Positions 1 to 20,969 of a stretch of DNA of 64,000 nt are shown here, one piece after another. The notes below the pieces were generated by a model that was not told where the DNA came from, did no database searches, and was given only the letters and a program-made list of their open reading frames with translations. The DNA is from Odontesthes bonariensis. Taxonomy: Eukaryota; Chordata; Actinopteri; Atheriniformes; Atherinopsidae. Made by a program: the position numbers and the translations under genes. The stretch lies in the NCBI RefSeq assembly GCF_027942865.1, contig NC_134507.1, positions 38,784,797-38,848,796 of the forward strand, written 5' to 3'. Positions within the stretch are counted from its first letter, which is position 1. Every line of letters begins with the position of its first letter.

Positions 1-16
1 CAGGTGCTGTAAGCAT
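1..16 (+). rRNA. 5S rRNA, 3' end only (cut by window edge)
   Basis: The first bases match the last 15 or so bases of the 5S genes in the following units and lead into the same T-run, which is the Pol III terminator, and the pyrimidine tract. The rest of the gene lies outside the window. Confidence 0.85.
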
Positions 17-242
17 TTTTCTCTCTTCTCTTCTCTCTGCATGTCTTTTGTTGAAACATCTGTTGATCACCCTGTGATCCATCTTGCTGATCCTGGATCT
101 GCTAAGGTGTCCCAGGTCATGGTTGCCTTTGATCCTCATACATTTAACTTTGTCCTGACAAAGGAGCAGTTCCAAAAAGTCAAACAGGGACTGCCTTTGC
201 ATTTGACGCAGTCAAACTGCATGCGCCTGGAGAAGCCAAAAG

Positions 243-320
243 GCTTACAGCACCTGGTATTCCCAGGCGGTCTCCCCATCCAAGTACTAACCAGGCCCGA
301 CTCTGCTTAGCTTCTGAGAT
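243..320 (-). pseudogene. Inverted 3' fragment of 5S rRNA gene
   Basis: On the minus strand this is the last 78 or so bases of a 5S gene, from ATCTCAGAAGC to GTGCTGTAAGC. It lacks the first 40 bases. It carries one extra base in the GGGAGACC segment (GGGGAGACC). Unlike the array 5S it has the common ACCGCCTGGG version, so it did not arise by simple inversion of the present array gene. It keeps most of the internal Pol III promoter, but with the 5' part missing it is best read as a pseudogene. Confidence 0.85.
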
Positions 321-559
321 AAAACTCTGGCTTTTAGTCTGCGAAAAGAGAGTGAAAGTGAACTCCACTTTGAGATGGCTCTGGGATTGGGCCGACTGGG
401 AGAATTGCTTGAAAAAAACCTCTACACCCAATGAGCGGTCAGAACAAAGCCTCAAGACCCCTAGTCTTTTGCACAGAGTAAAAGACAAAGCAGCCATTGA
501 ATAGGGCCCGATTGTTCCTACCTGGTCGGCCGAGGAGCCAGCGTCTCAACCAAGCAAAG

Positions 560-578
560 CTCACCGTGGGGAAGGTGG
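560..578 (+). promoter_or_regulatory. PSE of U5 snRNA gene (unit 1)
   Basis: CTCACCGTGGGGAAGGTGG lies at about -65 to -47 from the U5 start. It resembles the vertebrate proximal sequence element (TCACC followed by a purine-rich half) that binds SNAPc. There is no TATA box 20 bp downstream, as expected for a Pol II snRNA promoter. The same element recurs at 2260, 3960, 5660, 7355, 9050, 10750, 12445 and 14140. Confidence 0.6.
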
Positions 579-624
579 CTATGCCAACTAGCCTGATGCA
601 CTGCTCCCGCAGTGTCAAATACTC

Positions 625-744
625 GTACTCTGGTTTCTCTTCATAACGTACAAGTCTTTCGCCTTTTACTAAAGACTTCCGTGGAGAGCAGCATTAATGA
701 GTTGTTTCTATTTTTGGAAGGCTTTACCTTTGCGGGTGAAGCCC
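625..744 (+). ncRNA. U5 spliceosomal snRNA
   Basis: U5 is the core RNA of the U5 snRNP; its loop I holds the exon ends during splicing. The sequence has the U5 start (TACTCTGGTTTCTCTTC), the invariant loop I CGCCTTTTACTAAAG at 660-674, the GTGGAGAGCA side of stem I, the Sm site ATTTTTGG at 710-717 and a closing 3' stem-loop with arms GGCTTTACC and GGGTGAAGCC ending near 743. Length is about 118 nt, against 116 in human. The 5' end is uncertain by a few bases because TACTC occurs twice (620 and 626). All nine array copies are identical through the RNA. A PSE lies upstream. Confidence 0.93.
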
Positions 745-979
745 ATTCTGTCTGTGCAAAGGAAATCTTCTTGCTGTGCCAAGTGACTTCTCGGAGTAGA
801 GTCACCTTATTTCTTGAGACCGTGCCCATGTTCAAAGCTGGAGCGCTAAATTGTTGTTGTTTGAATGGTGCTCAGTGGAGCGGGCGGGAGTGCAAAGTTG
901 TACCATCTGAAACGGCTGAAGAGTGCTCACTGCAGCGGGTGGGCGGAGGTGCAAAGTGACGCTTTGTAGGTAAAAAAAG

Positions 980-998
980 AGCACCGCCACAAGTGCGC
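980..998 (+). promoter_or_regulatory. PSE of U2 snRNA gene (unit 1)
   Basis: AGCACCGCCACAAGTGCGC lies at about -62 to -44 from the U2 start and resembles the U5 element (CACCG, then a GTG half). GC boxes of the form GGGCGG near 882 and 941 could serve as distal elements. The element recurs in each unit (2680, 4380, 6080, 7775, 9470, 11170, 12865, 14560). The copy before the U2 at 7837 has a C-to-T change inside it, at 7780. Confidence 0.55.
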
Positions 999-1041
999 AT
1001 TGTGCCAGGAAGGGCTCTCGGACGTGAAACAGTGGAGGGTT

Positions 1042-1229
1042 ATCGCTTCTCGGCCTTTTGGCTAAGATCAAGTGTAGTATCTGTTCTTATCAGTTTAATA
1101 TCTGATACGTCCTCTATATGAGGACTACATATTAAATGGATTTTTAGGCACAGGGGTTGAAAAAGGGGCTTGCTCCGTTCACTCCACGCATCGACCCGGT
1201 ACTGCAGTGCCGCCGGGAACGGTGCACTC
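1042..1229 (+). ncRNA. U2 spliceosomal snRNA
   Basis: U2 pairs with the intron branch site. The sequence starts ATCGCTTCTCGGCCTTTTGG as in all vertebrate U2, with the branch-pairing GTAGTA, the TATCTGATACGTCCTCTAT stem-loop II start, the ATTAAATGGATTTTT segment and the 3' stem-loop IV ending CGGGAACGGTGCAC. Length is about 186-188 nt, the usual size. The Sm region reads GGATTTTTAGG and not the usual GGATTTTTGGA, and the stretch after it (to GGGGCTTGCTCC) also departs from human U2. Otherwise the fold elements are kept. A PSE and GC boxes lie upstream. Eight of nine copies are identical. Confidence 0.95.
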
Positions 1230-1596
1230 TTCCCAACTCTTGTGAAATAACAAAACCAGCGGTACATGGTGGTAGTTTCAGGGAGCCATTGTATTCTGAC
1301 TTCTAAAATGGAACTATAATCTTTAGAAAAGACGCAGTTTATGAGCACGTCGTGGGATTGAGCTTCCCTGGTTTCTCTGTATGACCATGAACACCAAACT
1401 ACACACAGAGAACAGAGGAGCTTGACAGACACACACTAAGTTATCTGAGAGTCCCATTTTCAGCTGCAGAGAACAATCACATCAGGGAAGTCGACGTGCA
1501 GGCTCAACATCAGCCTCTCAAGCCAACTCTCTGGTAAAATAGGGGCAACGTATGGTTCCAGCACCTATGTAACACATATTTGTCACGGGGACTGTG

Positions 1597-1716
1597 GCTT
1601 ACGGCCACACCGCCCTGAACACGCCCGATCTCGTCCGAACTCGGAAGCCAAGCAGGGTCGGGCCTGGTTAGTACTTGGATGGGAGACCGCTTGGGAATAC
1701 CAGGTGCTGTAAGCAT
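1597..1716 (+). rRNA. 5S ribosomal RNA
   Basis: The sequence begins GCTTACGGCCACACC and ends GTGCTGTAAGC followed by ATTTTT, the length (about 118-120 nt) and ends expected for vertebrate 5S rRNA. The internal Pol III control region (box A, intermediate element, box C) is present. The 5' and 3' ends pair to form helix I. An AT-rich CATATTTG lies about 25 bp upstream, where fish 5S genes have a TATA-like element. Compared with the usual vertebrate 5S it reads CCGAACTCGG instead of CCGATCTCGG and ACCGCTTGGG instead of ACCGCCTGGG. The changes are shared by every whole copy in the array, so they look like the type sequence here and not decay. Its partners are ribosomal proteins of the large subunit and TFIIIA. 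Confidence 0.95.
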
Positions 1717-1942
1717 TTTTCTCTCTTCTCTTCTCTCTGCATGTCTTTTGTTGAAACATCTGTTGATCACCCTGTGATCCATCTTGCTGATCCTGGATCT
1801 GCTAAGGTGTCCCAGGTCATGGTTGCCTTTGATCCTCATACATTTAACTTTGTCCTGACAAAGGAGCAGTTCCAAAAAGTCAAACAGGGACTGCCTTTGC
1901 ATTTGACGCAGTCAAACTGCATGCGCCTGGAGAAGCCAAAAG

Positions 1943-2020
1943 GCTTACAGCACCTGGTATTCCCAGGCGGTCTCCCCATCCAAGTACTAACCAGGCCCGA
2001 CTCTGCTTAGCTTCTGAGAT
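1943..2020 (-). pseudogene. Inverted 5S fragment
   Basis: Same sequence as the inverted fragment at 243, with its 3' end 228 bp past the end of the 5S gene at 1597. Confidence 0.85.
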
Positions 2021-2324
2021 AAAACTCTGGCTTTTAGTCTGCGAAAAGAGAGTGAAAGTGAACTCCACTTTGAGATGGCTCTGGGATTGGGCCGACTGGG
2101 AGAATTGCTTGAAAAAAACCTCTACACCCAATGAGCGGTCAGAACAAAGCCTCAAGACCCCTAGTCTTTTGCACAGAGTAAAAGACAAAGCAGCCATTGA
2201 ATAGGGCCCGATTGTTCCTACCTGGTCGGCCGAGGAGCCAGCGTCTCAACCAAGCAAAGCTCACCGTGGGGAAGGTGGCTATGCCAACTAGCCTGATGCA
2301 CTGCTCCCGCAGTGTCAAATACTC

Positions 2325-2444
2325 GTACTCTGGTTTCTCTTCATAACGTACAAGTCTTTCGCCTTTTACTAAAGACTTCCGTGGAGAGCAGCATTAATGA
2401 GTTGTTTCTATTTTTGGAAGGCTTTACCTTTGCGGGTGAAGCCC
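2325..2444 (+). ncRNA. U5 spliceosomal snRNA
   Basis: Identical to the copy at 625: loop I, Sm site and 3' stem-loop all present. Confidence 0.93.
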
Positions 2445-2741
2445 ATTCTGTCTGTGCAAAGGAAATCTTCTTGCTGTGCCAAGTGACTTCTCGGAGTAGA
2501 GTCACCTTATTTCTTGAGACCGTGCCCACGTTCAAAGCTGGAGCGCTAAATTGTTGTTGTTTGAATGGTGCTCAGTGGAGCGGGCGGGAGTGCAAAGTTG
2601 TACCATCTGAAACGGCTGAAGAGTGCTCACTGCAGCAGGTGGGCGGAGGTGCAAAGTGACGCTTTGTAGGCAAAAAAAGAGCACCGCCACAAGTGCGCAT
2701 TGTGCCAGGAAGGGCTCTCGGATGTGAAACAGTGGAGGGTT

Positions 2742-2929
2742 ATCGCTTCTCGGCCTTTTGGCTAAGATCAAGTGTAGTATCTGTTCTTATCAGTTTAATA
2801 TCTGATACGTCCTCTATATGAGGACTACATATTAAATGGATTTTTAGGCACAGGGGTTGAAAAAGGGGCTTGCTCCGTTCACTCCACGCATCGACCCGGT
2901 ACTGCAGTGCCGCCGGGAACGGTGCACTC
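2742..2929 (+). ncRNA. U2 spliceosomal snRNA
   Basis: Identical to the copy at 1042. One C-to-T change lies about 20 bp upstream (GATGTG for GACGTG). Confidence 0.95.
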
Positions 2930-3296
2930 TTCCCAACTCTTGTGAAATAACAAAACCAGCGGTACATGGTGGTAGTTTCAGGGAGCCATTGTATTCTGAC
3001 TTCTAAAATGGAACTATAATCTTTAGAAAAGACGCAGTTTATGAGCACGTCGTGGGATTGAGCTTCCCTGGTTTCTCTGTATGACCATGAACACCAAACT
3101 ACACACAGAGAACAGAGGAGCTTGACAGACACACACTAAGTTATCTGAGAGTCCCATTTTCAGCTGCAGAGAACAATCACATCAGGGAAGTCGACGTGCA
3201 GGCTCAACATCAGCCTCTCAAGCCAACTCTCTGGTAAAATAGGGGCAACGTATGGTTCCAGCACCTATGTAACACATATTTGTCACGGGGACTGTG

Positions 3297-3416
3297 GCTT
3301 ACGGCCACACCGCCCTGAACACGCCCGATCTCGTCCGAACTCGGAAGCCAAGCAGGGTCGGGCCTGGTTAGTACTTGGATGGGAGACCGCTTGGGAATAC
3401 CAGGTGCTGTAAGCAT
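3297..3416 (+). rRNA. 5S ribosomal RNA
   Basis: Same sequence as the copy at 1597, including the two array-specific differences and the T-run terminator. Confidence 0.95.
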
Positions 3417-3642
3417 TTTTCTCTCTTCTCTTCTCTCTGCATGTCTTTTGTTGAAACATCTGTTGATCACCCTGTGATCCATCTTGCTGATCCTGGATCT
3501 GCTAAGGTGTCCCAGGTCATGGTTGCCTTTGATCCTCATACATTTAACTTTGTCCTGACAAAGGAGCAGTTCCAAAAAGTCAAACAGGGACTGCCTTTGC
3601 ATTTGACGCAGTCAAACTGCATGTGCCTGGAGAAGCCAAAAG

Positions 3643-3720
3643 GCTTACAGCACCTGGTATTCCCAGGCGGTCTCCCCATCCAAGTACTAACCAGGCCCGA
3701 CTCTGCTTAGCTTCTGAGAT
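3643..3720 (-). pseudogene. Inverted 5S fragment
   Basis: Same sequence as the fragment at 243. A C-to-T change lies just outside it, in the preceding spacer near 3624. Confidence 0.85.
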
Positions 3721-4024
3721 AAAACTCTGGCTTTTAGTCTGCGAAAAGAGAGTGAAAGTGAACTCCACTTTGAGATGGCTCTGGGATTGGGCCGACTGGG
3801 AGAATTGCTTGAAAAAAACCTCTACACCCAATGAGCGGTCAGAACAAAGCCTCAAGACCCCTAGTCTTTTGCACAGAGTAAAAGACAAAGCAGCCATTGA
3901 ATAGGGCCCGATTGTTCCTACCTGGTCGGCCGAGGAGCCAGCGTCTCAACCAAGCAAAGCTCACCGTGGGGAAGGTGGCTATGCCAACTAGCCTGATGCA
4001 CTGCTCCCGCAGTGTCAAATACTC

Positions 4025-4144
4025 GTACTCTGGTTTCTCTTCATAACGTACAAGTCTTTCGCCTTTTACTAAAGACTTCCGTGGAGAGCAGCATTAATGA
4101 GTTGTTTCTATTTTTGGAAGGCTTTACCTTTGCGGGTGAAGCCC
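4025..4144 (+). ncRNA. U5 spliceosomal snRNA
   Basis: Identical to the copy at 625. Confidence 0.93.
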
Positions 4145-4441
4145 ATTCTGTCTGTGCAAAGGAAATCTTCTTGCTGTGCCAAGTGACTTCTCGGAGTAGA
4201 GTCACCTTATTTCTTGAGACCGTGCCCATGTTCAAAGCTGGAGCGCTAAATTGTTGTTGTTTGAATGGTGCTCAGTGGAGCGGGCGGGAGTGCAAAGTTG
4301 TACCATCTGAAACGGCTGAAGAGTGCTCACTGCAGCGGGTGGGCGGAGGTGCAAAGTGACGCTTTGTAGGTAAAAAAAGAGCACCGCCACAAGTGCGCAT
4401 TGTGCCAGGAAGGGCTCTCGGACGTGAAACAGTGGAGGGTT

Positions 4442-4629
4442 ATCGCTTCTCGGCCTTTTGGCTAAGATCAAGTGTAGTATCTGTTCTTATCAGTTTAATA
4501 TCTGATACGTCCTCTATATGAGGACTACATATTAAATGGATTTTTAGGCACAGGGGTTGAAAAAGGGGCTTGCTCCGTTCACTCCACGCATCGACCCGGT
4601 ACTGCAGTGCCGCCGGGAACGGTGCACTC
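4442..4629 (+). ncRNA. U2 spliceosomal snRNA
   Basis: Identical to the copy at 1042. Confidence 0.95.
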
Positions 4630-4996
4630 TTCCCAACTCTTGTGAAATAACAAAACCAGCGGTACATGGTGGTAGTTTCAGGGAGCCATTGTATTCTGAC
4701 TTCTAAAATGGAACTATAATCTTTAGAAAAGACGCAGTTTATGAGCACGTCGTGGGATTGAGCTTCCCTGGTTTCTCTGTATGACCATGAACACCAAACT
4801 ACACACAGAGAACAGAGGAGCTTGACAGACACACACTAAGTTATCTGAGAGTCCCATTTTCAGCTGCAGAGAACAATCACATCAGGGAAGTCGACGTGCA
4901 GGCTCAACATCAGCCTCTCAAGCCAACTCTCTGGTAAAATAGGGGCAACGTATGGTTCCAGCACCTATGTAACACATATTTGTCACGGGGACTGTG

Positions 4997-5116
4997 GCTT
5001 ACGGCCACACCGCCCTGAACACGCCCGATCTCGTCCGAACTCGGAAGCCAAGCAGGGTCGGGCCTGGTTAGTACTTGGATGGGAGACCGCTTGGGAATAC
5101 CAGGTGCTGTAAGCAT
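4997..5116 (+). rRNA. 5S ribosomal RNA
   Basis: Same sequence as the copy at 1597, including the T-run terminator. Confidence 0.95.
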
Positions 5117-5342
5117 TTTTCTCTCTTCTCTTCTCTCTGCATGTCTTTTGTTGAAACATCTGTTGATCACCCTGTGATCCATCTTGCTGATCCTGGATCT
5201 GCTAAGGTGTCCCAGGTCATGGTTGCCTTTGATCCTCATACATTTAACTTTGTCCTGACAAAGGAGCAGTTCCAAAAAGTCAAACAGGGACTGCCTTTGC
5301 ATTTGACGTAGTCAAACTGCATGCGCCTGGAGAAGCCAAAAG

Positions 5343-5420
5343 GCTTACAGCACCTGGTATTCCCAGGCGGTCTCCCCATCCAAGTACTAACCAGGCCCGA
5401 CTCTGCTTAGCTTCTGAGAT
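5343..5420 (-). pseudogene. Inverted 5S fragment
   Basis: Same sequence as the fragment at 243. Confidence 0.85.
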
Positions 5421-5724
5421 AAAACTCTGGCTTTTAGTCTGCGAAAAGAGAGTGAAAGTGAACTCCACTTTGAGATGGCTCTGGGATTGGGCCGACTGGG
5501 AGAATTGCTTGAAAAAAACCTCTACACCCAATGAGCGGTCAGAACAAAGCCTCAAGACCCCTAGTCTTTTGCACAGAGTAAAAGACAAAGCAGCCATTGA
5601 ATAGGGCCCGATTGTTCCTACCTGGTCGGCCGAGGAGCCAGCGTCTCAACCAAGCAAAGCTCACCGTGGGGAAGGTGGCTATGCCAACTAGCCTGATGCA
5701 CTGCTCCCGCAGTGTCAAATACTC

Positions 5725-5844
5725 GTACTCTGGTTTCTCTTCATAACGTACAAGTCTTTCGCCTTTTACTAAAGACTTCCGTGGAGAGCAGCATTAATGA
5801 GTTGTTTCTATTTTTGGAAGGCTTTACCTTTGCGGGTGAAGCCC
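5725..5844 (+). ncRNA. U5 spliceosomal snRNA
   Basis: Identical to the copy at 625. Confidence 0.93.
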
Positions 5845-6141
5845 ATTCTGTCTGTGCAAAGGAAATCTTCTTGCTGTGCCAAGTGACTTCTCGGAGTAGA
5901 GTCACCTTATTTCTTGAGACCGTGCCCACGTTCAAAGCTGGAGCGCTAAATTGTTGTTGTTTGAATGGTGCTCAGTGGAGCGGGCGGGAGTGCAAAGTTG
6001 TACCATCTGAAACGGCTGAAGAGTGCTCACTGCAGCGGGTGGGCGGAGGTGCAAAGTGACGCTTTGTAGGCAAAAAAAGAGCACCGCCACAAGTGCGCAT
6101 TGTGCCAGGAAGGGCTCTCGGACGTGAAACAGTGGAGGGTT

Positions 6142-6329
6142 ATCGCTTCTCGGCCTTTTGGCTAAGATCAAGTGTAGTATCTGTTCTTATCAGTTTAATA
6201 TCTGATACGTCCTCTATATGAGGACTACATATTAAATGGATTTTTAGGCACAGGGGTTGAAAAAGGGGCTTGCTCCGTTCACTCCACGCATCGACCCGGT
6301 ACTGCAGTGCCGCCGGGAACGGTGCACTC
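6142..6329 (+). ncRNA. U2 spliceosomal snRNA
   Basis: Identical to the copy at 1042. Confidence 0.95.
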
Positions 6330-6696
6330 TTCCCAACTCTTGTGAAATAACAAAACCAGCGGTACATGGTGGTAGTTTCAGGGAGCCATTGTATTCTGAC
6401 TTCTAAAATGGAACTATAATCTTTAGAAAAGACGCAGTTTATGAGCACGTCGTGGGATTGAGCTTCCCTGGTTTCTCTGTATGACCATGAACACCAAACT
6501 ACACACAGAGAACAGAGGAGCTTGACAGACACACACTAAGTTATCTGAGAGTCCCATTTTCAGCTGCAGAGAACAATCACATCAGGGAAGTCGACGTGCA
6601 GGCTCAACATCAGCCTCTCAAGCCAACTCTCTGGTAAAATAGGGGCAACGTATGGTTCCAGCACCTATGTAACACATATTTGTCACGGGGACTGTG

Positions 6697-6816
6697 GCTT
6701 ACGGCCACACCGCCCTGAACACGCCCGATCTCGTCCGAACTCGGAAGCCAAGCAGGGTCGGGCCTGGTTAGTACTTGGATGGGAGACCGCTTGGGAATAC
6801 CAGGTGCTGTAAGCAT
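6697..6816 (+). rRNA. 5S ribosomal RNA
   Basis: Same sequence as the copy at 1597. The downstream pyrimidine tract is the short (5 bp less) version. Confidence 0.95.
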
Positions 6817-7037
6817 TTTTCTCTCTTCTCTCTGCATGTCTTTTGTTGAAACATCTGTTGATCACCCTGTGATCCATCTTGCTGATCCTGGATCTGCTAA
6901 GGTGTCCCAGGTCATGGTTGCCTTTGATCCTCATACATTTAACTTTGTCCTGACAAAGGAGCAGTTCCAAAAAGTCAAACAGGGACTGCCTTTGCATTTG
7001 ACGCAGTCAAACTGCATGCGCCTGGAGAAGCCAAAAG

Positions 7038-7115
7038 GCTTACAGCACCTGGTATTCCCAGGCGGTCTCCCCATCCAAGTACTAACCAGGCCCGACTCTG
7101 CTTAGCTTCTGAGAT
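7038..7115 (-). pseudogene. Inverted 5S fragment
   Basis: Same sequence as the fragment at 243. Confidence 0.85.
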
Positions 7116-7419
7116 AAAACTCTGGCTTTTAGTCTGCGAAAAGAGAGTGAAAGTGAACTCCACTTTGAGATGGCTCTGGGATTGGGCCGACTGGGAGAAT
7201 TGCTTGAAAAAAACCTCTACACCCAATGAGCGGTCAGAACAAAGCCTCAAGACCCCTAGTCTTTTGCACAGAGTAAAAGACAAAGCAGCCATTGAATAGG
7301 GCCCGATTGTTCCTACCTGGTCGGCCGAGGAGCCAGCGTCTCAACCAAGCAAAGCTCACCGTGGGGAAGGTGGCTATGCCAACTAGCCTGATGCACTGCT
7401 CCCGCAGTGTCAAATACTC

Positions 7420-7539
7420 GTACTCTGGTTTCTCTTCATAACGTACAAGTCTTTCGCCTTTTACTAAAGACTTCCGTGGAGAGCAGCATTAATGAGTTGT
7501 TTCTATTTTTGGAAGGCTTTACCTTTGCGGGTGAAGCCC
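7420..7539 (+). ncRNA. U5 spliceosomal snRNA
   Basis: Identical to the copy at 625. Confidence 0.93.
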
Positions 7540-7836
7540 ATTCTGTCTGTGCAAAGGAAATCTTCTTGCTGTGCCAAGTGACTTCTCGGAGTAGAGTCAC
7601 CTTATTTCTTGAGACCGTGCCCATGTTCAAAGCTGGAGCGCTAAATTGTTGTTGTTTGAATGGTGCTCAGTGGAGCGGGCGGGAGTGCAAAGTTGTACCA
7701 TCTGAAACGGCTGAAGAGTGCTCACTGCAGCGGGTGGGCGGAGGTGCAAAGTGACGCTTTGTAGGCAAAAAAAGAGCACTGCCACAAGTGCGCATTGTGC
7801 CAGGAAGGGCTCTCGGACGTGAAACAGTGGAGGGTT

Positions 7837-8024
7837 ATCGCTTCTCGGCCTTTTGGCTAAGATCAAGTGTAGTATCTGTTCTTATCAGTTTAATATCTGA
7901 TACGTCCTCTATATGAGGACTATATATTAAATAGATTTTTAGGCACAGGGGTTGAAAAAGGGGCTTGCTCCGTTCACTCCACGCATCGACCCGGTACTGC
8001 AGTGCCGCCGGGAACGGTGCACTC
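7837..8024 (+). ncRNA. U2 spliceosomal snRNA, diverged copy
   Basis: This is the only U2 in the array that differs from the rest. It reads GACTATATATT for GACTACATATT and AAATAGATTTTT for AAATGGATTTTT, the second change being just before the Sm site. Its PSE also carries a change at 7780, and its 3' spacer has several more. It may be a weakened copy. The branch-pairing and stem-loop IV sequences are unchanged. Confidence 0.85.
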
Positions 8025-8391
8025 TTCCCAACTCTTGTGAAATAACAAAACCAGCTGTACATGGTGGTAGTTTCAGGGAGCCATTGTATTCTGACTTCTA
8101 AAATGGAACTATAATCTTTAGAAAAGACGCAGTTTATGAGCACGTCGTGGGATTGCGCTTCCCTGGTTTCTCTGTATGACCATGAACACCAAACTACACA
8201 CAGAGAACAGAGGAGCTTGACAGACACACACTAAGTTATCTCAGAGTCCCATTTTCAGCTGCAGAGAACAATCACATCAGGGAAGTCGACGTGCAGGCTC
8301 AACATCAGCCTCTCAAGCCAACTCTCTGGTAAAATAGGGGCAACGTATGGTTCCAGCACCTATGTAACACATATTTGTCACGGGGACTGTG

Positions 8392-8511
8392 GCTTACGGC
8401 CACACCGCCCTGAACACGCCCGATCTCGTCCGAACTCGGAAGCCAAGCAGGGTCGGGCCTGGTTAGTACTTGGATGGGAGACCGCTTGGGAATACCAGGT
8501 GCTGTAAGCAT
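8392..8511 (+). rRNA. 5S ribosomal RNA
   Basis: Same sequence as the copy at 1597, with the short downstream pyrimidine tract. Confidence 0.95.
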
Positions 8512-8732
8512 TTTTCTCTCTTCTCTCTGCATGTCTTTTGTTGAAACATCTGTTGATCACCCTGTGATCCATCTTGCTGATCCTGGATCTGCTAAGGTGT
8601 CCCAGGTCATGGTTGCCTTTGATCCTCATACATTTAACTTTGTCCTGACAAAGGAGCAGTTCCAAAAAGTCAAACAGGGACTGCCTTTGCATTTGACGCA
8701 GTCAAACTGCATGCGCCTGGAGAAGCCAAAAG

Positions 8733-12509: not shown

Positions 12510-12629
12510 GTACTCTGGTTTCTCTTCATAACGTACAAGTCTTTCGCCTTTTACTAAAGACTTCCGTGGAGAGCAGCATTAATGAGTTGTTTCTATTTTT
12601 GGAAGGCTTTACCTTTGCGGGTGAAGCCC
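12510..12629 (+). ncRNA. U5 spliceosomal snRNA
   Basis: Identical to the copy at 625. Confidence 0.93.
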
Positions 12630-12926
12630 ATTCTGTCTGTGCAAAGGAAATCTTCTTGCTGTGCCAAGTGACTTCTCGGAGTAGAGTCACCTTATTTCTT
12701 GAGACCGTGCCCACGTTCAAAGCTGGAGCGCTAAATTGTTGTTGTTTGAATGGTGCTCAGTGGAGCGGGCGGGAGTGCAAAGTTGTACCATCTGAAACGG
12801 CTGAAGAGTGCTCACTGCAGCGGGTGGGCGGAGGTGCAAAGTGACGCTTTGTAGGCAAAAAAAGAGCACCGCCACAAGTGCGCATTGTGCCAGGAAGGGC
12901 TCTCGGACGTGAAACAGTGGAGGGTT

Positions 12927-13114
12927 ATCGCTTCTCGGCCTTTTGGCTAAGATCAAGTGTAGTATCTGTTCTTATCAGTTTAATATCTGATACGTCCTCT
13001 ATATGAGGACTACATATTAAATGGATTTTTAGGCACAGGGGTTGAAAAAGGGGCTTGCTCCGTTCACTCCACGCATCGACCCGGTACTGCAGTGCCGCCG
13101 GGAACGGTGCACTC
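12927..13114 (+). ncRNA. U2 spliceosomal snRNA
   Basis: Identical to the copy at 1042. One T-to-C change lies in the 3' spacer (GGGACTGAGC). Confidence 0.95.
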
Positions 13115-13481
13115 TTCCCAACTCTTGTGAAATAACAAAACCAGCGGTACATGGTGGTAGTTTCAGGGAGCCATTGTATTCTGACTTCTAAAATGGAACT
13201 ATAATCTTTAGAAAAGACGCAGTTTATGAGCACGTCGTGGGACTGAGCTTCCCTGGTTTCTCTGTATGACCATGAACACCAAACTACACACAGAGAACAG
13301 AGGAGCTTGACAGACACACACTAAGTTATCTGAGAGTCCCATTTTCAGCTGCAGAGAACAATCACATCAGGGAAGTCGACGTGCAGGCTCAACATCAGCC
13401 TCTCAAGCCAACTCTCTGGTAAAATAGGGGCAACGTATGGTTCCAGCACCTATGTAACACATATTTGTCACGGGGACTGTG

Positions 13482-13601
13482 GCTTACGGCCACACCGCCC
13501 TGAACACGCCCGATCTCGTCCGAACTCGGAAGCCAAGCAGGGTCGGGCCTGGTTAGTACTTGGATGGGAGACCGCTTGGGAATACCAGGTGCTGTAAGCA
13601 T
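13482..13601 (+). rRNA. 5S ribosomal RNA
   Basis: Same sequence as the copy at 1597, with the short downstream pyrimidine tract. This is the last undamaged 5S of the array. Confidence 0.95.
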
Positions 13602-13822
13602 TTTTCTCTCTTCTCTCTGCATGTCTTTTGTTGAAACATCTGTTGATCACCCTGTGATCCATCTTGCTGATCCTGGATCTGCTAAGGTGTCCCAGGTCAT
13701 GGTTGCCTTTGATCCTCATACATTTAACTTTGTCCTGACAAAGGAGCAGTTCCAAAAAGTCAAACAGGGACTGCCTTTGCATTTGACGCAGTCAAACTGC
13801 ATGCGCCTGGAGAAGCCAAAAG

Positions 13823-13900
13823 GCTTACAGCACCTGGTATTCCCAGGCGGTCTCCCCATCCAAGTACTAACCAGGCCCAACTCTGCTTAGCTTCTGAGAT
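13823..13900 (-). pseudogene. Inverted 5S fragment
   Basis: Same as the fragment at 243 except for one G-to-A change on the plus strand at about 13880. Confidence 0.85.
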
Positions 13901-14204
13901 AAAACTCTGGCTTTTAGTCTGCGAAAAGAGAGTGAAAGTGAACTCCACTTTGAGATGGCTCTGGGATTGGGCCGACTGGGAGAATTGCTTGAAAAAAACC
14001 TCTACACCCAATGAGCGGTCAGAACAAAGCCTCAAGACCCCTAGTCTTTTGCACAGAGTAAAAGACAAAGCAGCCATTGAATAGGGCCCGATTGTTCCTA
14101 CCTGGTCGGCCGAGGAGCCAGCGTCTCAACCAAGCAAAGCTCACCGTGGGGAAGGTGGCTATGCCAACTAGCCTGATGCACTGCTCCCGCAGTGTCAAAT
14201 ACTC

Positions 14205-14324
14205 GTACTCTGGTTTCTCTTCATAACGTACAAGTCTTTCGCCTTTTACTAAAGACTTCCGTGGAGAGCAGCATTAATGAGTTGTTTCTATTTTTGGAAG
14301 GCTTTACCTTTGCGGGTGAAGCCC
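14205..14324 (+). ncRNA. U5 spliceosomal snRNA
   Basis: Identical to the copy at 625 within the RNA. One T-to-A change lies a few bases past the 3' end (CATTCAGTC), in the zone where a 3' box would act. Confidence 0.93.
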
Positions 14325-14621
14325 ATTCAGTCTGTGCAAAGGAAATCTTCTTGCTGTGCCAAGTGACTTCTCGGAGTAGAGTCACCTTATTTCTTGAGAC
14401 CGTGCCCATGTTCAAAGCTGGAGCGCTAAATTGTTGTTGTTTGAATGGTGCTCAGTGGAGCGGGCGGGAGTGCAAAGTTGTACCATCTGAAACGGCTGAA
14501 GAGTGCTCACTGCAGCGGGTGGGCGGAGGTGCAAAGTGACGCTTTGTAGGCAAAAAAAGAGCACCGCCACAAGTGCGCATTGTGCCAGGAAGGGCTCTCG
14601 GACGTGAAACAGTGGAGGGTT

Positions 14622-14809
14622 ATCGCTTCTCGGCCTTTTGGCTAAGATCAAGTGTAGTATCTGTTCTTATCAGTTTAATATCTGATACGTCCTCTATATG
14701 AGGACTACATATTAAATGGATTTTTAGGCACAGGGGTTGAAAAAGGGGCTTGCTCCGTTCACTCCACGCATCGACCCGGTACTGCAGTGCCGCCGGGAAC
14801 GGTGCACTC
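14622..14809 (+). ncRNA. U2 spliceosomal snRNA
   Basis: Identical to the copy at 1042; the last U2 of the array. Confidence 0.95.
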
Positions 14810-15176
14810 TTCCCAACTCTTGTGAAATAACAAAACCAGCGGTACATGGTGGTAGTTTCAGGGAGCCATTGTATTCTGACTTCTAAAATGGAACTATAAT
14901 CTTTAGAAAAGACGCAGTTTATGAGCACGTCGTGGGATTGAGCTTCCCTGGTTTCTCTGTATGACCATGAACACCAAACTACACACAGAGAACAGAGGAG
15001 CTTGACAGACACACACTAAGTTATCTGAGAGTCCCATTTTCAGCTGCAGAGAACAATCACATCAGGGAAGTCGACGTGCAGGCTCAACATCAGCCTCTCA
15101 AGCCAACTCTCTGGTAAAATAGGGGCAACGTATGGTTCCAGCACCTATGTAACACATATTTGTCACAGGGACTGTG

Positions 15177-15286
15177 GCTTACGGCCACACCGCCCTGAAC
15201 ACGCCCGAACTCGGAAGCCAAGCAGGGTCGGGCCTGGTTAGTACTTGGATGGGAGACCGCTTGGGAATACCAGGTGCTGTAAGCAT
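15177..15286 (+). pseudogene. 5S rRNA with 10-bp internal deletion
   Basis: This copy lacks about 10 bp found in all others: it goes from ACACGCCCGA directly to ACTCGG, dropping the TCTCGTCC part of the helix II/III region. The ends and the T-run are normal. One base just upstream also differs (CACAGGG for CACGGGG). The deletion removes bases needed for the 5S fold, so a functional product is unlikely although box C survives. It is the edge copy, where homogenisation is expected to be weakest. Confidence 0.85.
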
Positions 15287-15540
15287 TTTTCTCTCTTCTC
15301 TTCTCTCTGCATGTCTTTTGTTGAAACATCTGTTGTGACACATATTTCTGAATAATATGCATCCTATTCTAATACAAAGATTTTATACTAGTCTCATGCC
15401 ATTACTACATGGAACAATTTTCTATTAATATCCCATAGTTATACAGATTTATAACTACAGTAATGCAATCGTGTCAGCCTCTTTGCTTTTTTCCCCTCTA
15501 TAACTTGTAAACTAAACAACTGGTTATACTATACAGGATG

Positions 15541-15592
15541 GCTGTGTGTGTGTGTGTTAGTTTGTGTGTGTCTGTCTGTGTGTGTGTGAAGC
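15541..15592 (+). repeat. (TG)n microsatellite
   Basis: A run of TGTG with a few interruptions lies directly before the first coding exon of the next gene. The 200 bp before it (15336-15540) are AT-rich, with no feature I can name. Confidence 0.8.
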
Positions 15593-15594
15593 AA

Positions 15595-17684
15595 ATGGAT
15601 CCTCTGATGCCTGTGCTGTCCATCCTGGACACAAGCTTCCCCAAGGACAGGCAGCAGTGTGTGCTTGGGATGACCAAGGAGGCCAAGGACTTCCTTAAGG
15701 CACATGCACGGGACCGTGAGACAGTGGACAGTAGGCTGAGAGACTCAGACAAGGCTTACAAAGAAGGTGAGAAGAGTGCATGCACAACCCTGTGCTTACA
15801 ACTGCACTACTGTCTAGGCATGATTACTTTAATTTTGTTCCCCCTTATTTATCTGTCTACAGCTTTGAAGAAATGCCAGATCGTCACACCCTCTCCAACT
15901 GAGGCGCAAGTCCTGGGGCAGCTGGTGATGACCTTTGGCCAGTACACCAGCAAGAGCTTCAAGTGGCTGGTCGAGAATGATGTCGGCTACTGCAAATAGT
16001 AAGTGTGGTACACTAAATGTGATCGCCATGTGAATAGTGTTATAACTTAATAGTACTGTATCACTATGTTACATTACTATGCCATTTCAGCATCGTCGAC
16101 CGCCACATGAAGGAGATGAGGCACCCTGAGAAGAGGAAGACCATCAACGACGAGTGGCTGAAGGAGCAGCTGGTCAAGTACGCGCACCTCTTCACCACCG
16201 TCTCGTGCCACCTGGAGGTGAATGTGGACCGGGCCATCTATGGACAGGGGAGGTTCAAGTCGTTCACCTACCTGGAGATGTGGCAGTGGTACAGCCTGTA
16301 CAAGAGGCTCCTGGCGGATCCTCAGGCTGGCAGCGACGCTGAGAGGAAGAGGGCGCAGGAGGCCTACACGTCGGTGACACAGTGGCTCCTCATGAAGGAG
16401 GATGACATCAATTCAAAGGCCCTGAAGAGGTTCAGAAAGTACATTATGGACAAGGAGGTATGTGTGCAGGTGAACATGTGTATAAAGGAATAACATAACA
16501 AATGTATTGAGCACAACTGAAATGTAATATTCCTCCTAATACCTCAGCAGGGTGTAGCCACTCCTTCCACCGCATCTGCTTCCTCCAACAAGCCCCCAGC
16601 AGCATCTGCAGCAGCAGCAGCAGCACCACCCACCACCAGCAATGCCCTCCATCACCTCCTCCTCCTGCATCTCCCTCCATCACCAGCAAGGCCCCAGCAG
16701 CATCTGCAGCAGCAGCAGCAGCAGCAGCAGCACCCACTGCCACCATCAGCAAGGCCCCTCAATCACCTCCTCCTCCTGCACCTCCCTCCATCACCAGCAA
16801 GAATCGTCCATCAGCCACACCTACCTCCACCACAAAGCCCCCTTCAGCACCAGCAGCAGCAGCAGCATCCCCCACCACCACCGCGAAGCCGAAGAAGAAG
16901 GCCTCCTCCAAGTCGGCTGCCCCAACACCATCGCCTGCCACCCCAGCACCCCGTGCAGCTGTGCCTACCTCTTCACCGGTACCCTCCTTCTTTGCGCCCC
17001 GTCCATCAGCCACCACTCCCAGCTCAGCAGACCCCAGCTGGGAAGACGACGCTCTGCTTGTGGAGGCTCTGTCCACCTACGAAACACAAGGTACATATTC
17101 ATTTAACACAAGTTGTATTAGTTTACTGGCTAATAGCACACAGATCGTGCATGTCACATCCAGTGGGCTGCTGTAATGAAAAGCCTCATTCCACAGTGTG
17201 GATATACTATAATCAATGTGTTTTGGGTTTTTTTGTATTTACAGAGAGCCAGTCACAGAAGGCAGTTGGTGGTGAAGACGCCATCCTGTTTGAAGGATGG
17301 CACAAATCCTGGGAGGCTGAGGACAGCGGGCTGCCCGAGCAAGACATTAAGTGGCTGAAGGAGGATGAGGAGAGGGGGCTCTTTCTGAAGCCGCGGCCCT
17401 TCTCTGACATGTACGGCAGGAAGAGGTGGAGGAAGATCCTGAAGAGTGAAAAGATGTGGTTCCACCCTCCCGAGATGCCCGGTGTGGTGGATGGCAGCAC
17501 GGTCCCCGTGGCAGACAGTTTCTTCCGACACCGCGTCTTCTTCTGGAGGCCAGTTGGTGTGTGGCGCTACAGCGTCCGCTGCACTGAGCCCGGCTGCCCT
17601 GCCAAGGACAACCCGAAGGCTTTCCTGTACCGCTGTGGCTACGGCAACACGGTGAGGCCCATCTGTGACATCAACGGCTGGTAA
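15595..17684 (+). CDS. Five-exon gene, ExoX-C-like motif plus DUF6729-like C-terminus
   Basis: Exons are read as 15595-15766, 15863-15998, 16091-16457, about 16548-17090 and 17245-17684, each with GT/AG borders (GTGAGA, GTAAGT, GTATGT, GTACAT donors). Phases agree across the first three joins and the last. Exon 2 encodes TFGQYTSKSFKWLVENDVGY, resembling the F-G-K-y-k-G-K-t-w pattern of the ExoX-like C-terminal domain. Exon 3 is charged and helical. Exon 4 is Ala/Pro/Ser-rich, with CAG-type runs. Exon 5 encodes WFHPPEMPG and RVFFWRPVGVWRYSVRC with spaced cysteines, typical of the DUF6729 region of teleost proteins. Function unknown. In exon 4 the frame that fits exon 3 (SNKPPAASAAAAAAPP) differs from the frame that fits exon 5 (SADPSWEDDALLVEALSTYE), so there is either another acceptor in the AG-rich tract, a repeat-length change or a broken gene. 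The end GGCTGGTAAATG could be a stop or a splice donor. Confidence 0.55.
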
Positions 17685-17859
17685 ATGACTGATACTGAGG
17701 CCCAGTGACTGATCTTGACTTGTCTGAACTTTTTTTTTCTCTTATCTTTGATGTCACTTTATGTTGTTGTTTGTGTATATAGTTTCCTGATTGCACTCCT
17801 ACATGCACATGTATACAGTTCTCATTTTTATTGTTCGCTTACACTTGATTTCTTGTTTG

Positions 17860-18276: not shown

Positions 18277-18299
18277 TGCACTTCAGCCATTAAAGTGCC

Positions 18300-19056
18300 T
18301 TGAATCGCAGTAGCAGTGTGTTGTGTCATTTCTTATTCCAAGTCAACACTTTCAATGTTCTCCTTCAATCTATTCATTATAATGTAACCTACCAGTAATT
18401 ATAATCATTCATGATATACCATCATCTGTAATAATAAACACATGAACAGCATACAACTGTGAAGAAATAAAAAAGTTTATTGACTTAATAGACAATGTTG
18501 CAGAGGTAACAGTGTGTCATTTCCCCCATAATCAATGTCTCCATCACCATGTAGGCCTCAAACCAGCGGGTCGACCAATGGGAAGACAAAAATAAGAGCT
18601 TTAGAGGTTTTGTTTACGTTCACATCCACATGTTTCTAAAAATAGCCACACCAATTAGTCTCATGTCTTTTTTTAACCACCTTTTTCTTTTTTTCATACA
18701 ATACCAAGTACCAGCTGGTGGGTGAAAATAAATAAATCACTCAAATGAAGTGATCAATAGACAGCAATGCAAGCATTAAAACACGATTCAATGTCCAACA
18801 CTCCCAATTAGACAAAACACTTGTATAAAACGTTCATTTAAGTCGTATTTTGTACATTTCCCTAGATTCACCCTGAAACAAAACTTCACCACATGGCCTG
18901 GCAGCTTTTGACAGCTAATTGACCAATAGTACAGCATGCCCATGATTTCCCATCCCTCCCTCTCCATGGATTTGATTGACAAATCTTTTAGCCAATAATA
19001 TGCCTTATTTGTCTTACAGTCTACATCCGATTTTGCACTTTGTACGCGCTGAGGGC
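18300..19056. other. Unassigned stretch
   Basis: I recognise no gene here. On the minus strand GTCAATAAACTTTTTT near 18470 could be a poly(A) signal of a leftward transcript, but no convincing coding exon follows to the right. The sequence from about 18780 may be flank of the U1 repeat that has lost similarity. Confidence 0.4.
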
Positions 19057-19153
19057 CATTCGCAAGAATCAGCACAGCCGGTGTGCAATGGCTGAGCCTC
19101 ATCCTGGGTGAACCACCTTCTTGATCATGGTATCTCCCCTGCCAGGTAAGTAT
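19057..19153 (-). pseudogene. Truncated U1 snRNA gene
   Basis: The first 97 or so bases of U1 are present in normal order: the 5' splice-site-pairing ATACTTACCTG, the U1-70K loop GATCAAGAAGG and the stem-loop II CATTGCACAC. Similarity then stops, so the Sm site and stem-loop IV are missing. The promoter is retained, with a PSE-like element on the minus strand at 19196-19214. A transcript could not form a normal snRNP. Confidence 0.85.
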
Positions 19154-19701
19154 GGGTTGGAACTGTCAGAGGCTGACACCTCTTTTCCACGTGCCTCACT
19201 CGGCCAGACGGTGCAGCAAATTCAACTGTCTGCAGTGCCATGCCAGCAGCTAACCTGAATCTGAAAAGCTTGCAGATTAAAACACTCCGGCTTTTCTTCA
19301 TCTTTCTGATCAGTTCTTGTTTCAACAACCAAGGAACTTGGAGCACAAATTGATTTAGTTTTTCCACTCTCCCCATCTCTAGAGCCACACCCACCCACAC
19401 TGGGAAAATTCTTAGTTGAGGCAAACCCTCACGGCTTAATATCTCCAGTGCAGAAATGCTGCCGTATTCTCATCTCGTTGTTGCCATCACTAAGGCAATG
19501 CCCACCTGCCTGGGGTGAGTGCACTGTATGACCTCACCTGACAACTGCGCAGCTGCATATCAGCTGTGCAGACCTGCCGCAGCATTCAGCAAACCTTGCA
19601 AAACATGGGTTTTAAAGATGGAAAGGTGTCGTTAAAGCAGCAACACCAGGACGAAAACCAAGGTAGAGTTGCCCAGGGATATTCACGTTATACAGTCAAA
19701 T

Positions 19702-19866
19702 CAGGGGAGAGCGCGAACGCAGTCCCCAACTACCAGAAATTATGCAGTCGAGATTCCCACATTTGGGGAATTTCGCAAGGGTCAGTACAGCCAGTGTGCA
19801 ATGGCTGAGCCTCGTCCTGGGTGAACCACCTTCTTGATCATGGTATCTCCGCTGCCAGGTAAGTAT
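19702..19866 (-). ncRNA. U1 spliceosomal snRNA
   Basis: U1 pairs with the 5' splice site. Read on the minus strand it starts ATACTTACCTGGCAG, has the 70K-binding loop GATCAAGAAGG, the U1A-binding loop within CCATTGCACACTGG, the Sm site AATTTCTGG and the 3' stem-loop GACTGCGTTCGCGCTCTCCCC, 165 nt in all. Human U1 is 164 nt. One change (GGCAGCGGAG for GGCAGGGGAG) falls in stem I. The U1A loop reads ATTGCACAC instead of the human ATTGCACTC. A PSE lies at -61 to -43. It is the best candidate for a working U1 in the window. Confidence 0.9.
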
Positions 19867-19908
19867 GAGTTGGAACTGTCAGAGGCTGACACCTCTTTTC
19901 CAGGTGCC

Positions 19909-19927
19909 TCACTCGGCCGGACGGTGC
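19909..19927 (-). promoter_or_regulatory. PSE of U1 snRNA gene
   Basis: Minus-strand GCACCGTCCGGCCGAGTGA lies at -61 to -43 from the U1 start. It shares the CACCG start and GTG half with the U5 and U2 elements of the 5S array. Equivalents lie at 19196-19214 (one base different) and 20621-20639. Confidence 0.6.
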
Positions 19928-20414
19928 AGCAAATTCAACTGTCTGCAGTGCCATGCCAGCAGCTAACCTGAATCTGAAAAGCTTGCAGATTAAAACACTC
20001 CGGCTTTTCTTCATCTTCCTGATCAGTTCTTGTTTCAACAACCAAGGAACTTGGAGCACAAATTGATTTAGTTTTTCCACTCTCCCCATCTCTAGAGCCA
20101 CACCCACCCACACTGGGAAAATTCTTAGTTGAGGCAAACCCTCACGGCTTAATATCTCCAGTGCAGAAATGCTGCCGTATTCTCATCTCGTTGTTGCCAT
20201 CACTAAGGCAACGCCCACCTGCCTGGGGTGACTGCACTGTATGACCTCACCTGACAACTGCGCAGCTGCATATCAGCTGTGCAGACCTGCCGCAGCATTC
20301 AGTAAACCTTGCAAAACATTGGTTTTAAAGATGGAAAGGTGTCCTTAAAGCAGCAACGTCAGGACAAAAAACAAGGTAAAGTTGCCCAGGGATATTTACA
20401 TTATACATTTAAAT

Positions 20415-20578
20415 CAGGGGAGAGCGCGAACGCAGTCCCCCACTACCAGAAATTATGCAGTCGAGATTCCCACATTTGGGGAATTCGCAAGGGTCAGTAC
20501 AGCCGGTGTGCAATGGCTGAGCCTTGTCCTGGGTGAACCACCTTCTTGATCATCATATCTTCCCTGCCAGGTAAGTAT
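20415..20578 (-). ncRNA. U1 spliceosomal snRNA, variant in stem-loop I
   Basis: Full-length U1 (164 nt) with a normal 5' end, Sm site and 3' stem-loop. Just after GGCAGGG it reads AAGATATGATGATC where U1 normally has GAGATACCATGATC, so stem-loop I is altered, although the GATCAAGAAGG part of the 70K loop is intact. A PSE lies at 20621-20639. It is either a variant U1 or the start of decay. Confidence 0.85.
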
Positions 20579-20969
20579 GAGTTGGAACTGTCAGAGGCTG
20601 ACACCTCTTTTCCACGTGCCTCACTCGGCCGGACGGTGCAGCAAATTCAACTGTCTGCAGTAACATGCCAGCAGCTAACCTGAATCTGAAAAGCTTGCAG
20701 ATTAAAACAGTCTGGCTTTTCTTCATCTTTCTGATCAGTTCTTGTTTCAACAACCAAGGAACTTGGAGCAGAAATTTATTTAGTTTTTCCACTCTCCCCA
20801 TCTCTAGAGCCACACCCAACCCACACTGGGAAAATTCTTAGTTGAGGAAAACCCTCACGGCTTAATATCTCCAGTGCAGACATGCTGCCGTATTCAGCAA
20901 AACTTGCTAAACATCCACTTCATTGTTCACATGTGCTCTTTTTTTTCATCTTTTTGCTGCCATCTCTAA

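Follow-up and report, generated by a model that had tools for sequence, protein, structure and literature searches.

The stretch of DNA analysed here, termed the window, comprises 64,000 bases of contig C2 and was examined together with a 150 kb flank. A covariance-model search of the window (cmscan with Rfam) returned 30 matches at or above the gathering score: nine 5S, nine U5, nine U2 and three U1. The 5S, U5 and U2 genes, all on the + strand, form a tandem array with a unit period of 1,700 or 1,695 bp, in which the order of genes is U5 - U2 - 5S and the spacing of all three is fixed in 9/9 units. Chance matches are ruled out as an explanation of these RNA genes, since 29 of the 30 scores are far over the cut-off and the spacing does not vary. 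The original prediction of one 5S, one U5 and one U2 gene per ~1.7-kb unit, in the same orientation, is borne out by every unit in the window, and a Pol III gene (5S) is indeed joined with two Pol II snRNA genes (U5 and U2). The array and its first unit contain the following features.

1 to 15335, + strand: tandem array of 5S-U5-U2 units, the right-hand 60% of an array starting at C2:38,774,323
239 to 320, - strand: inverted truncated 5S, 3' part, in unit 1
563 to 580, + strand: PSE-like element of U5, ACCG at -62, no TATA
625 to 744, + strand: U5 snRNA gene of unit 1 (RF00020 match at 625-737; the 3' hairpin folds to ~743)
983 to 1000, + strand: PSE-like element of U2, ACCG at -59, no TATA
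1042 to 1232, + strand: U2 snRNA gene of unit 1 (RF00004, 185.9-187 bits across copies)
1597 to 1715, + strand: 5S rRNA gene of unit 1 (RF00001, 112.3 bits), with a T-run directly after
15177 to 15285, + strand: last 5S copy (93.3 bits), with a 10-bp internal deletion in the alignment

The other U5 copies in the window start at 2325, 4025, 5725, 7420, 9115, 10815, 12510 and 14205 (86.1 bits each), the other U2 copies at 2742, 4442, 6142, 7837, 9532, 11232, 12927 and 14622, and the other 5S copies preceding the last one at 3297, 4997, 6697, 8392, 10087, 11787 and 13482, with eight 5S copies scoring 112.3 bits. The last copy, judged by its deletion, is probably a dead gene. Any two of the nine units differ at 1 to 21 of the 1,700 columns of their alignment, gaps included. 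The array extends 10.5 kb to the left of window base 1, and with this extension it holds 17 5S, 17 U2 and 13 U5 genes; four of its units are without U5, three of them 931 bp long and the fourth a piece of ~0.9 kb at the left end. One inverted 5S fragment is present in each full unit, making 13 in the whole array.

Beyond the array, the nearest U1 match starts at 19011, 3.7 kb from the array end at 15335, and all three U1 matches lie on the - strand, as had been predicted. The region between array and U1, and the U1 copies themselves, are composed as follows.

15588 to 17690, + strand: protein-coding gene or its remains, with DUF6729 near the 3' end
19011 to 19153, - strand: U1 pseudogene, 5' part only (77.9 bits), Sm site and 3' stem-loop lost
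19702 to 19866, - strand: full-length U1 copy (147.1 bits), four canonical stem pairs lost, 1-base insertion
20415 to 20578, - strand: full-length U1 copy (141.9 bits), five canonical stem pairs lost

The DUF6729 match (Pfam PF20499) occupies 17241-17684 with an E value of 2.7e-13, while the two frames upstream of its frame gave no Pfam match. The covariance models, proposed earlier as a check, accepted both the U5 and the U1 copies, the truncated U1 narrowly, this being the lowest-scoring match in the window (77.9 vs a gathering cut-off of 69.5 bits). The 5'-splice-site arm is kept in all three U1 copies and the Sm site in both full-length ones, which have lost 4-5 stem pairs compared with one in the two better U1 copies on C2. 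As read from these changes, the window copies are decaying and fall short of a functional U1 gene. Membership of U1 in the repeat unit is ruled out, with no U1 in nine units. The claim that four RNAs are joined here is partly sustained: U1 adjoins the array, but it lies outside the unit and its window copies are in decay. A misassembly as the sole link between U1 cluster and array is extremely improbable. Near-identical tandem units are difficult to assemble, but the window has no N and so none between array and U1, the 150 kb flank has only one N run, of 78 bases, both array ends run into other sequence, and U1 clusters and 5S-U5-U2 arrays recur along C2. The same 78-base N runs occur at U2 gene starts in other C2 arrays, and for that reason they are read as masked stretches and not as assembly gaps.

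Two complements of these RNA genes, at separate places, are directly observed in the genome. The canonical set consists of U1 and U2 on C14, U5 on C15 and 5S on C16, and a variant, amplified set of 5S, U1, U2 and U5 occupies ~8 Mb of C2 (32.1-40.1 Mb). The arrays are spread over this distance, and the earlier idea of clustering at one 21-kb site has to be given up. The genome profile searches score the best candidates only, so that the counts of U1, U2 and U5 are lower bounds, the canonical ones included: 10 U1 on C14 and 32 on C2 among 42 matches scored, 9 U2 on C14 and 37 on C2 among 46, and 4 U5 on C15 and 43 on C2 among 47, the window's own U5 copies excluded. Masked stretches also hide parts of many U2 copies in the searched sequence. 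The 32 U1 places on C2, again the best candidates, fall into 10 scattered clusters between 32.25 and 39.80 Mb. A fifth canonical U5 was found on C15 beside the four scored, giving at least five, to be set against 487 genome copies of an exact 29-mer of the variant U5 (reversed control 0). An exact 28-mer of the variant 5S has 345 genome copies (control 0) vs 235 copies of the canonical 5S. Arrays of a variant U4 lie on C22 instead of C2, and none of 11 U6 matches is on C2, canonical U6 being possibly masked in the searched sequence.

Retention of RNA structure was assessed with a random-decay test based on a simple substitution model and Rfam consensus pairs. The variant U2 differs from the canonical one at 28 aligned positions and has lost 0/45 pairs, the changes that keep pairs comprising two double and three single ones; under random decay a mean of 8.0 pairs is lost, and none of 20,000 trials lost no pair. 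In the 5' domain of the variant U5, 14 differences cost one pair vs a null mean of 5.4 (P 0.006), and in the variant 5S 6/6 differences fall at unpaired positions (P 0.04). In this test pair-keeping of the variant U1 was not above chance (P 0.49). Two further U5 3'-stem pairs were scored as lost by the covariance alignment, and these apparent losses are ascribed to misalignment. The array U5 keeps the loop CGCCUUUUACUA, the Sm site AUUUUUGG, a compensatory pair at 30-52 and a 10-bp 3' hairpin. The array U2 is identical to the C14 copy over bases 1-71, with its PSE-like element at -59. A PSE-like ACC[AG] at -59 to -62 is directly observed in 10/10 of the snRNA promoters compared, the ten that also served to choose the motif, and TATA in none. 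By these features the array U5 has the loop, stems, Sm site, 3' hairpin and PSE-like element expected of a functional gene, and the array U2 the 5' part, stems and PSE-like element. The folding of the variant U2 and U5 is kept, which is counted as a sign of selection on the RNA, as judged by the pairing.

These results bear on the possibility that 5S and snRNA genes merely landed in repeat-rich chromatin, where unequal exchange and segmental duplication multiplied them passively, the majority of copies being silent and without a stage-specific role. Six reverse transcriptase and two DDE transposase frames among the 20 long frames searched in window and flanks would suit such an origin, as would the decaying U1 copies, the damaged last 5S, and the U5-less units and inverted 5S fragments, which would reflect sloppy rearrangement. 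A long-dead family, however, would be expected to lose both its pairing and its PSE-like elements, whereas the variant U2 and U5 have kept their pairing through many changes and the elements are in place, so that passive accumulation is considered unlikely, although it retains appreciable weight. A second alternative is that most cells express the two complements side by side, the C2 arrays raising dosage only, with no division into maternal and somatic types. Both 5S types are numerous (345 and 235), and fly snRNA isoforms are described as co-expressed at early stages (PMC4291461). Against this, the U2 and U5 variants have diverged strongly from the canonical genes, and developmental switching of snRNA isoforms is described in fly and mouse and, as cited there, in Xenopus and chicken (PMC4291461); such joint use is regarded as improbable.

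The neighbourhood of the arrays was also characterized, and in the window it includes the following feature.

55238 to 56395, + strand: C2H2 zinc-finger array (Pfam zf-C2H2, 12 stretches)

Zinc-finger genes are directly seen around the RNA arrays. The family found in the window has 63 of its 146 genome matches on C2, all within 32.10-40.11 Mb and at 44 loci, with 51 of the 146 on C24, 15 on C16 and more on other contigs. No 5S, U1, U2 or U5 is on C24 among the matches listed, so that the family is not invariably accompanied by RNA arrays. Nine tRNAs (ARAGORN; eight by Rfam) and one SRP RNA lie in the 150 kb around the window, and no tRNA in the 64-kb window itself or in 50 kb taken from other arrays on C2. 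C2 shows no enrichment of NLR (FISNA) genes, having 4 of the 150 matches scored. For miR-430, 318 places were found in all; among the 100 listed, 89 are on C16 and nine on C2, the C2 cluster being at 43.88 Mb, ~3.8 Mb past the end of the block. Because scored NLR matches and listed miR-430 matches are both most numerous on C16, which has a 5S array of its own as well, that contig was considered as possibly a closer counterpart of zebrafish Chr4R than C2.

Taken together, the array is somewhat favoured to be one of many in an ~8-Mb block on C2 that holds a variant, amplified RNA set, probably serving supply of the oocyte and early embryo, and within this joint reading its genes would be of working-type 5S, U5 and U2. 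One point against it is that at the Sm-site position the variant U2 carries AUUUUUAG in place of the canonical AUUUUUGG. According to this reading, the units would be homogenised by unequal exchange, and the variant set would provide bulk splicing and ribosomal RNA to oocytes and early embryos, as do the zebrafish Chr4R block and the oocyte and embryonic gene sets of frogs, leaving the canonical set to somatic cells. Each gene would yield its own transcript, with Pol II acting at the PSE promoters of U5, U2 and U1 and Pol III at the internal promoter of 5S. The shared unit would tie the copy numbers of 5S, U5 and U2 together, and U1 genes would amplify separately, near the arrays. More tentatively, the 5S, U1, U2 and U5 RNAs of the block, whose genes lie among zinc-finger genes in a manner comparable to Chr4R, could be specific to the egg, for which 5S, U5 and U2 would be multiplied at a constant ratio. 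Confidence in such a maternal block is lowered because the zinc-finger family is almost as dense on C24, which is without 5S or snRNA among the matches listed. A 5S copy-number imbalance was rejected as proof of maternal type: with 345 variant vs 235 canonical copies there is no zebrafish-like lopsidedness, and copy number does not tell which 5S would be maternal.

Linkage of 5S with snRNA genes alone has precedent, and the wider block of variant RNAs matters more. A second fish genome with variant 5S and snRNAs in a zinc-finger block would help to tell whether the zebrafish block is peculiar to its lineage or one instance of an arrangement that recurs, and the differences between the C2 and canonical RNA types allow a direct test of whether the egg has spliceosome RNAs of its own. 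With genes for Pol II and Pol III side by side in hundreds of copies, these arrays likewise offer a case for studying how mixed arrays are transcribed and homogenised.

Among known systems, U2 of a toadfish is described as without linkage to another snRNA (PMC3544641). In Merluccius, U1 and U2 are co-located and U5 lies in the U2 spacer (PMC4696792), a linkage of several snRNA genes that resembles the canonical U1-U2 cluster on C14, in a unit which, as described there, is without 5S. Tandem U2-U5 linkage is reported in Plectorhinchus, Moronidae, Engraulidae and Oreochromis (PMC3464664), and here too U2 and U5 share one repeat, each with a PSE (PSE-like in the present case); unlike those repeats, the Odontesthes unit has 5S added, whereas the 5S and U2-U5 probes in Plectorhinchus marked different chromosomes according to the same source. 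Closest in composition is Solea senegalensis, in which 5S is linked with U1, U2 and U5 (Manchado et al. 2006, Genome 49:79-86; as cited in PMC3464664, PMC4696792, PMC3544641 and PMC4233971), so that the same four RNA families are closely linked in a teleost. Since this 5S-U1-U2-U5 linkage was already published (PMC3464664), the linkage seen here is not the first of its kind. Set against Solea as cited, U1 of Odontesthes is outside the repeat, 3.7 kb off, on the other strand and decaying in the window, and the arrays are spread over ~8 Mb with a canonical complement elsewhere. The oocyte 5S and embryonic U1 gene sets of Xenopus (PMC5513064, PMC4291461) offer a likeness of another kind, the early use of a variant set of RNA genes next to a second one, known there from expression and proposed here from sequence; those accounts do not describe 5S and snRNA genes in one unit.

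The zebrafish Chr4R maternal-to-zygotic block contains maternal 5S, U1, U6, tRNA and zinc-finger genes; zebrafish 5S genes number 2,330 maternal vs 12 somatic. C2 differs from it, as it is described, in that U2 and U5, not U6, were found on it and in placing 5S, U5 and U2 in one repeat unit, as well as in its few NLRs, in listed miR-430 mostly on C16 and in a zinc-finger family as prominent on C24. Full likeness to the NLR-rich Chr4R is ruled out by the FISNA count on C2. In both, a region of several megabases brings together amplified variant genes for 5S and U1, members of a zinc-finger family and some tRNAs, the other RNA set being elsewhere; the C2 block would extend the zebrafish arrangement from U1 and U6 to U2 and U5.

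The whole window was scanned with cmscan against Rfam, which gave 30 matches above the gathering score: nine each for U2, 5S and U5, all on the plus strand, and three for U1 on the minus strand. All four RNAs named in the original prediction are thus recognized, and the proposed union of 5S, U5 and U2 in one orientation within a unit of about 1.7 kb is borne out by nine copies of each at fixed spacing. The order in each unit is U5, U2, 5S, with spacers of approximately 298 bp between U5 and U2, 364 bp between U2 and 5S, and 609 bp from 5S to the U5 of the following unit. The period is 1,700 or 1,695 bp, the difference being a 5-bp TCTCT indel. The nine window units differ pairwise by 1 to 21 per 1,700 columns, gaps included, and the largest values are accounted for by the last unit, which has a 10-bp 5S deletion. 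Every full unit additionally carries an inverted 3' fragment of a 5S gene. Reading 100 kb of left flank and 50 kb of right flank placed the start of the array at C2:38,774,323, where C2 is contig NC_134507.1. The complete array contains 17 5S, 17 U2 and 13 U5 genes; U5 is missing from four units, of which three are 931 bp long and the fourth is a piece of roughly 0.9 kb at the left end. There is no N anywhere in the window and a single N run, of 78 bases, in these flanks; in other C2 arrays, runs of this length mask U2 copies over their initial 78 bases, so these runs are taken for masked sequence and not for assembly gaps.

Features of the window and right flank (window coordinates unless stated)
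1-15335, plus: tandem 5S-U5-U2 units
15588-17690: DUF6729-domain gene, lying between array and U1 copies
19011-19153, 19702-19866 and 20415-20578, minus: U1 copies
29039-31555, minus: LINE-like long frame with endonuclease and reverse transcriptase domains, 839 codons between stops
34793-38566, plus: LINE-like long frame with the same domains, 1,258 codons between stops
43179-44671: 55-bp minisatellite, 27 copies, 98% matches
47215-47611: 33 copies of a 12-bp repeat, with several frames open
55238-56395: zinc-finger frame
57339-61361: Myb/SANT-like frame (plus) and DDE_Tnp_4 frames (minus), which we take to be Harbinger-like
2323-7258 of flank piece L031 (C2:38,868,797-38,878,796): six-tRNA cluster (Asp, Thr, Thr, Pro, Pro, Ser) and SRP RNA gene, some 65-70 kb to the right of the U1 cluster

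A second flank piece, L032, carries a frame of equal length and start to that at 34793-38566. Among ten frames searched in the flanks and window, four encode reverse transcriptase and one a TRIM-PRY-SPRY protein.

U1 had been described as a separate tandem cluster 3.7 kb past the array, on the other strand. The 5' ends of the three window matches are 712-713 bp apart. The copy at 19011-19153 is without the Sm site and 3' stem-loop, while the other two are full length and have lost 4 (19702-19866) and 5 (20415-20578) of the 44 pairs of the Rfam structure formed by a canonical copy on contig C14. In the better-scoring C2 clusters at 37.94 and 39.80 Mb, the two U1 copies compared have lost one pair. 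Because of these losses, the window cluster is a decaying member of a family with better copies elsewhere on C2. Genome-wide, 42 U1 places were scored; 32 are on this contig, in 10 clusters (gap <20 kb) scattered over 32.25-39.80 Mb. U1 is therefore a neighbour in the same block, at varying distances, rather than a member of the repeat unit.

The search of the genome (945 Mb, 187 contigs) reveals two complements, for which RNA counts cover the places scored and copy numbers so given are lower bounds. Canonical U1 (10 scored) and U2 (9 scored) lie on C14 at 4.65-9.07 Mb, U2 standing about 1.4 kb ahead of U1 in one of the pieces examined. Canonical U5 is on C15, with four scored and a fifth found in a piece read. 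Canonical-type 5S occupies C16 from 12.53 to at least 12.76 Mb in a 1,697-bp unit; six C16 pieces out of ten were scanned, and in these the unit has 5S genes on both strands, at a distance of 471 bp, and neither U2 nor U5. The variant complement is on C2, with 32 U1, 37 U2 and 43 U5 places scored. Exact strings occur 345 (variant 5S), 235 (canonical-type 5S) and 487 (variant U5) times in the genome, against 0 for each reversed-string control; the first 100 locations listed for each are on C2, C16 and C2, respectively. Six consecutive units of the 32.71-Mb C2 array show a constant distance of 759 bp between the 5S and U5 strings, and units of this type, incomplete in some cases, recur in the pieces read at 32.37, 32.38, 32.64, 35.27 and 36.06 Mb. 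Since about 220 bp of upstream sequence is common to the C2 and C16 5S genes (84.6% over 344 bp with the gene counted in), the two modules are related, one derived from the other or both from a common ancestor. The inverted 5S fragment of the C2 unit may have survived from a C16-like opposed pair. U4 repeats the two-complement pattern on contigs other than C2: four higher-scoring copies are on C12, and a variant tandem array of 38 scored copies, mostly of 1,131-bp period, is at C22:3,417,213-3,473,012, with 25 differences in the one pair compared.

Variant and canonical U2 differ at 28 aligned positions. None of 45 pairs is lost; both partners have changed in two pairs and a single partner in three, two pairs are gained, and one is unpaired in both RNAs. 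Random decay of the same size loses 8.0 pairs on average, and 0 of 20,000 trials lost none. The U5 5' domain has 14 differences, including one double change from A-U to G-C, and has lost one pair, against a null mean of 5.4 (P 0.006). Two more pairs of the U5 3' stem are counted as lost by the covariance alignment, yet the strand folds into a 10-pair hairpin. In 5S, the six differences leave all paired columns untouched (P 0.044). Variant U1, with four differences and one pair lost (P 0.49), shows pair-keeping not distinguishable from chance. The Sm site of variant U2 is AUUUUUAG, compared with canonical AUUUUUGG. The element ACC[AG], picked from these same promoters (so that the shuffle values for single promoters, 0.01-0.06, serve for description only), is located at -59 to -62 in all ten snRNA promoters compared (window U5, U2 and three U1, one further C2 U1, C14 U1 and U2, and two C15 U5), and TATA is absent from all ten. 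It is likewise present in both U4 genes examined. Such an element without TATA is expected of PSE-driven Pol II genes.

The window zinc-finger frame has 146 genome matches, of which 63 (44 loci) are on C2, all within the RNA-array stretch at 32.10-40.11 Mb; C24 has 51, C16 15 and seven other contigs 17. The C24 concentrations, at 2.0-7.0 and 23.4-25.4 Mb, stand without 5S or snRNA among the matches listed, which speaks against a strict tie between this family and the arrays. Across both flanks (150 kb), nine tRNA genes were found by ARAGORN and eight by Rfam, together with SRP RNA. A miR-430 precursor string has 318 genome matches, and among the 100 listed, 89 are on C16, nine on C2 (43.88 Mb) and two elsewhere, the identity being backed by Rfam RF01413 at two places read. 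The clusters at C16:24.6-28.6 Mb and C2:43.88 Mb are tandem, spaced about 1.1-1.7 kb, with two alternating mature forms. FISNA-type NLR genes show a large expansion; among 150 scored matches C16, C13, C26 and C12 are richest, C16 first, and the four on C2 are all inside the block. None of 11 U6 genome matches is on C2, and canonical U6 may lie outside the sequence searched; six, at C22:24.26-33.38 Mb, score 63.4-72.5 bits, where the best match reaches 97.5, and are possibly pseudogenes or a variant type.

In the available parts of PMC11075544 and PMC3392230, zebrafish Chr4R Region-2 is described with maternal genes for 5S, U1 and U6, numerous tRNAs, zinc-finger genes and adjacent miR-430, the zinc-finger genes being turned on at zygotic genome activation (also PMC10547256, in part). 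Amplified variant 5S and U1 and a zinc-finger family are common to this region and the C2 block; U2 and U5 are added in C2, whereas the NLR concentration of Chr4R is not shared (four of 150 scored). For tRNA and miR-430 a likeness is at most suggested. Early and late snRNA isoforms differ in frogs, mice, chicken and flies (PMC4291461, as far as available), and oocyte and somatic 5S are separate in frogs and zebrafish (PMC5513064, likewise). From these comparisons, we lean slightly towards an oocyte or early-embryo RNA supply set as the likeliest use of the C2 arrays. It is possible, alternatively, that the C16 5S is the maternal type, C16 being richest in scored NLR and listed miR-430.

The four-RNA arrangement is real, but it is not the first of its kind, as 5S-U1-U2-U5 linkage in Solea senegalensis is attributed to a 2006 report in the accessible part of PMC3464664, which also gives U2-U5 linkage in Moronidae, Engraulidae and Oreochromis. 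In hake, according to the portion seen of PMC4696792, U1 and U2 are at one place and U5 is inside the U2 spacer. Among the matches listed from the open-access literature (titles and abstract openings), a block of amplified variant 5S, U1, U2 and U5 among zinc-finger genes is undescribed outside the zebrafish papers. Within that literature, as far as its accessible parts go, 5S-snRNA and U2-U5 linkage in fishes is already known, and the variant four-RNA block among zinc-finger genes is what appears to be new here.
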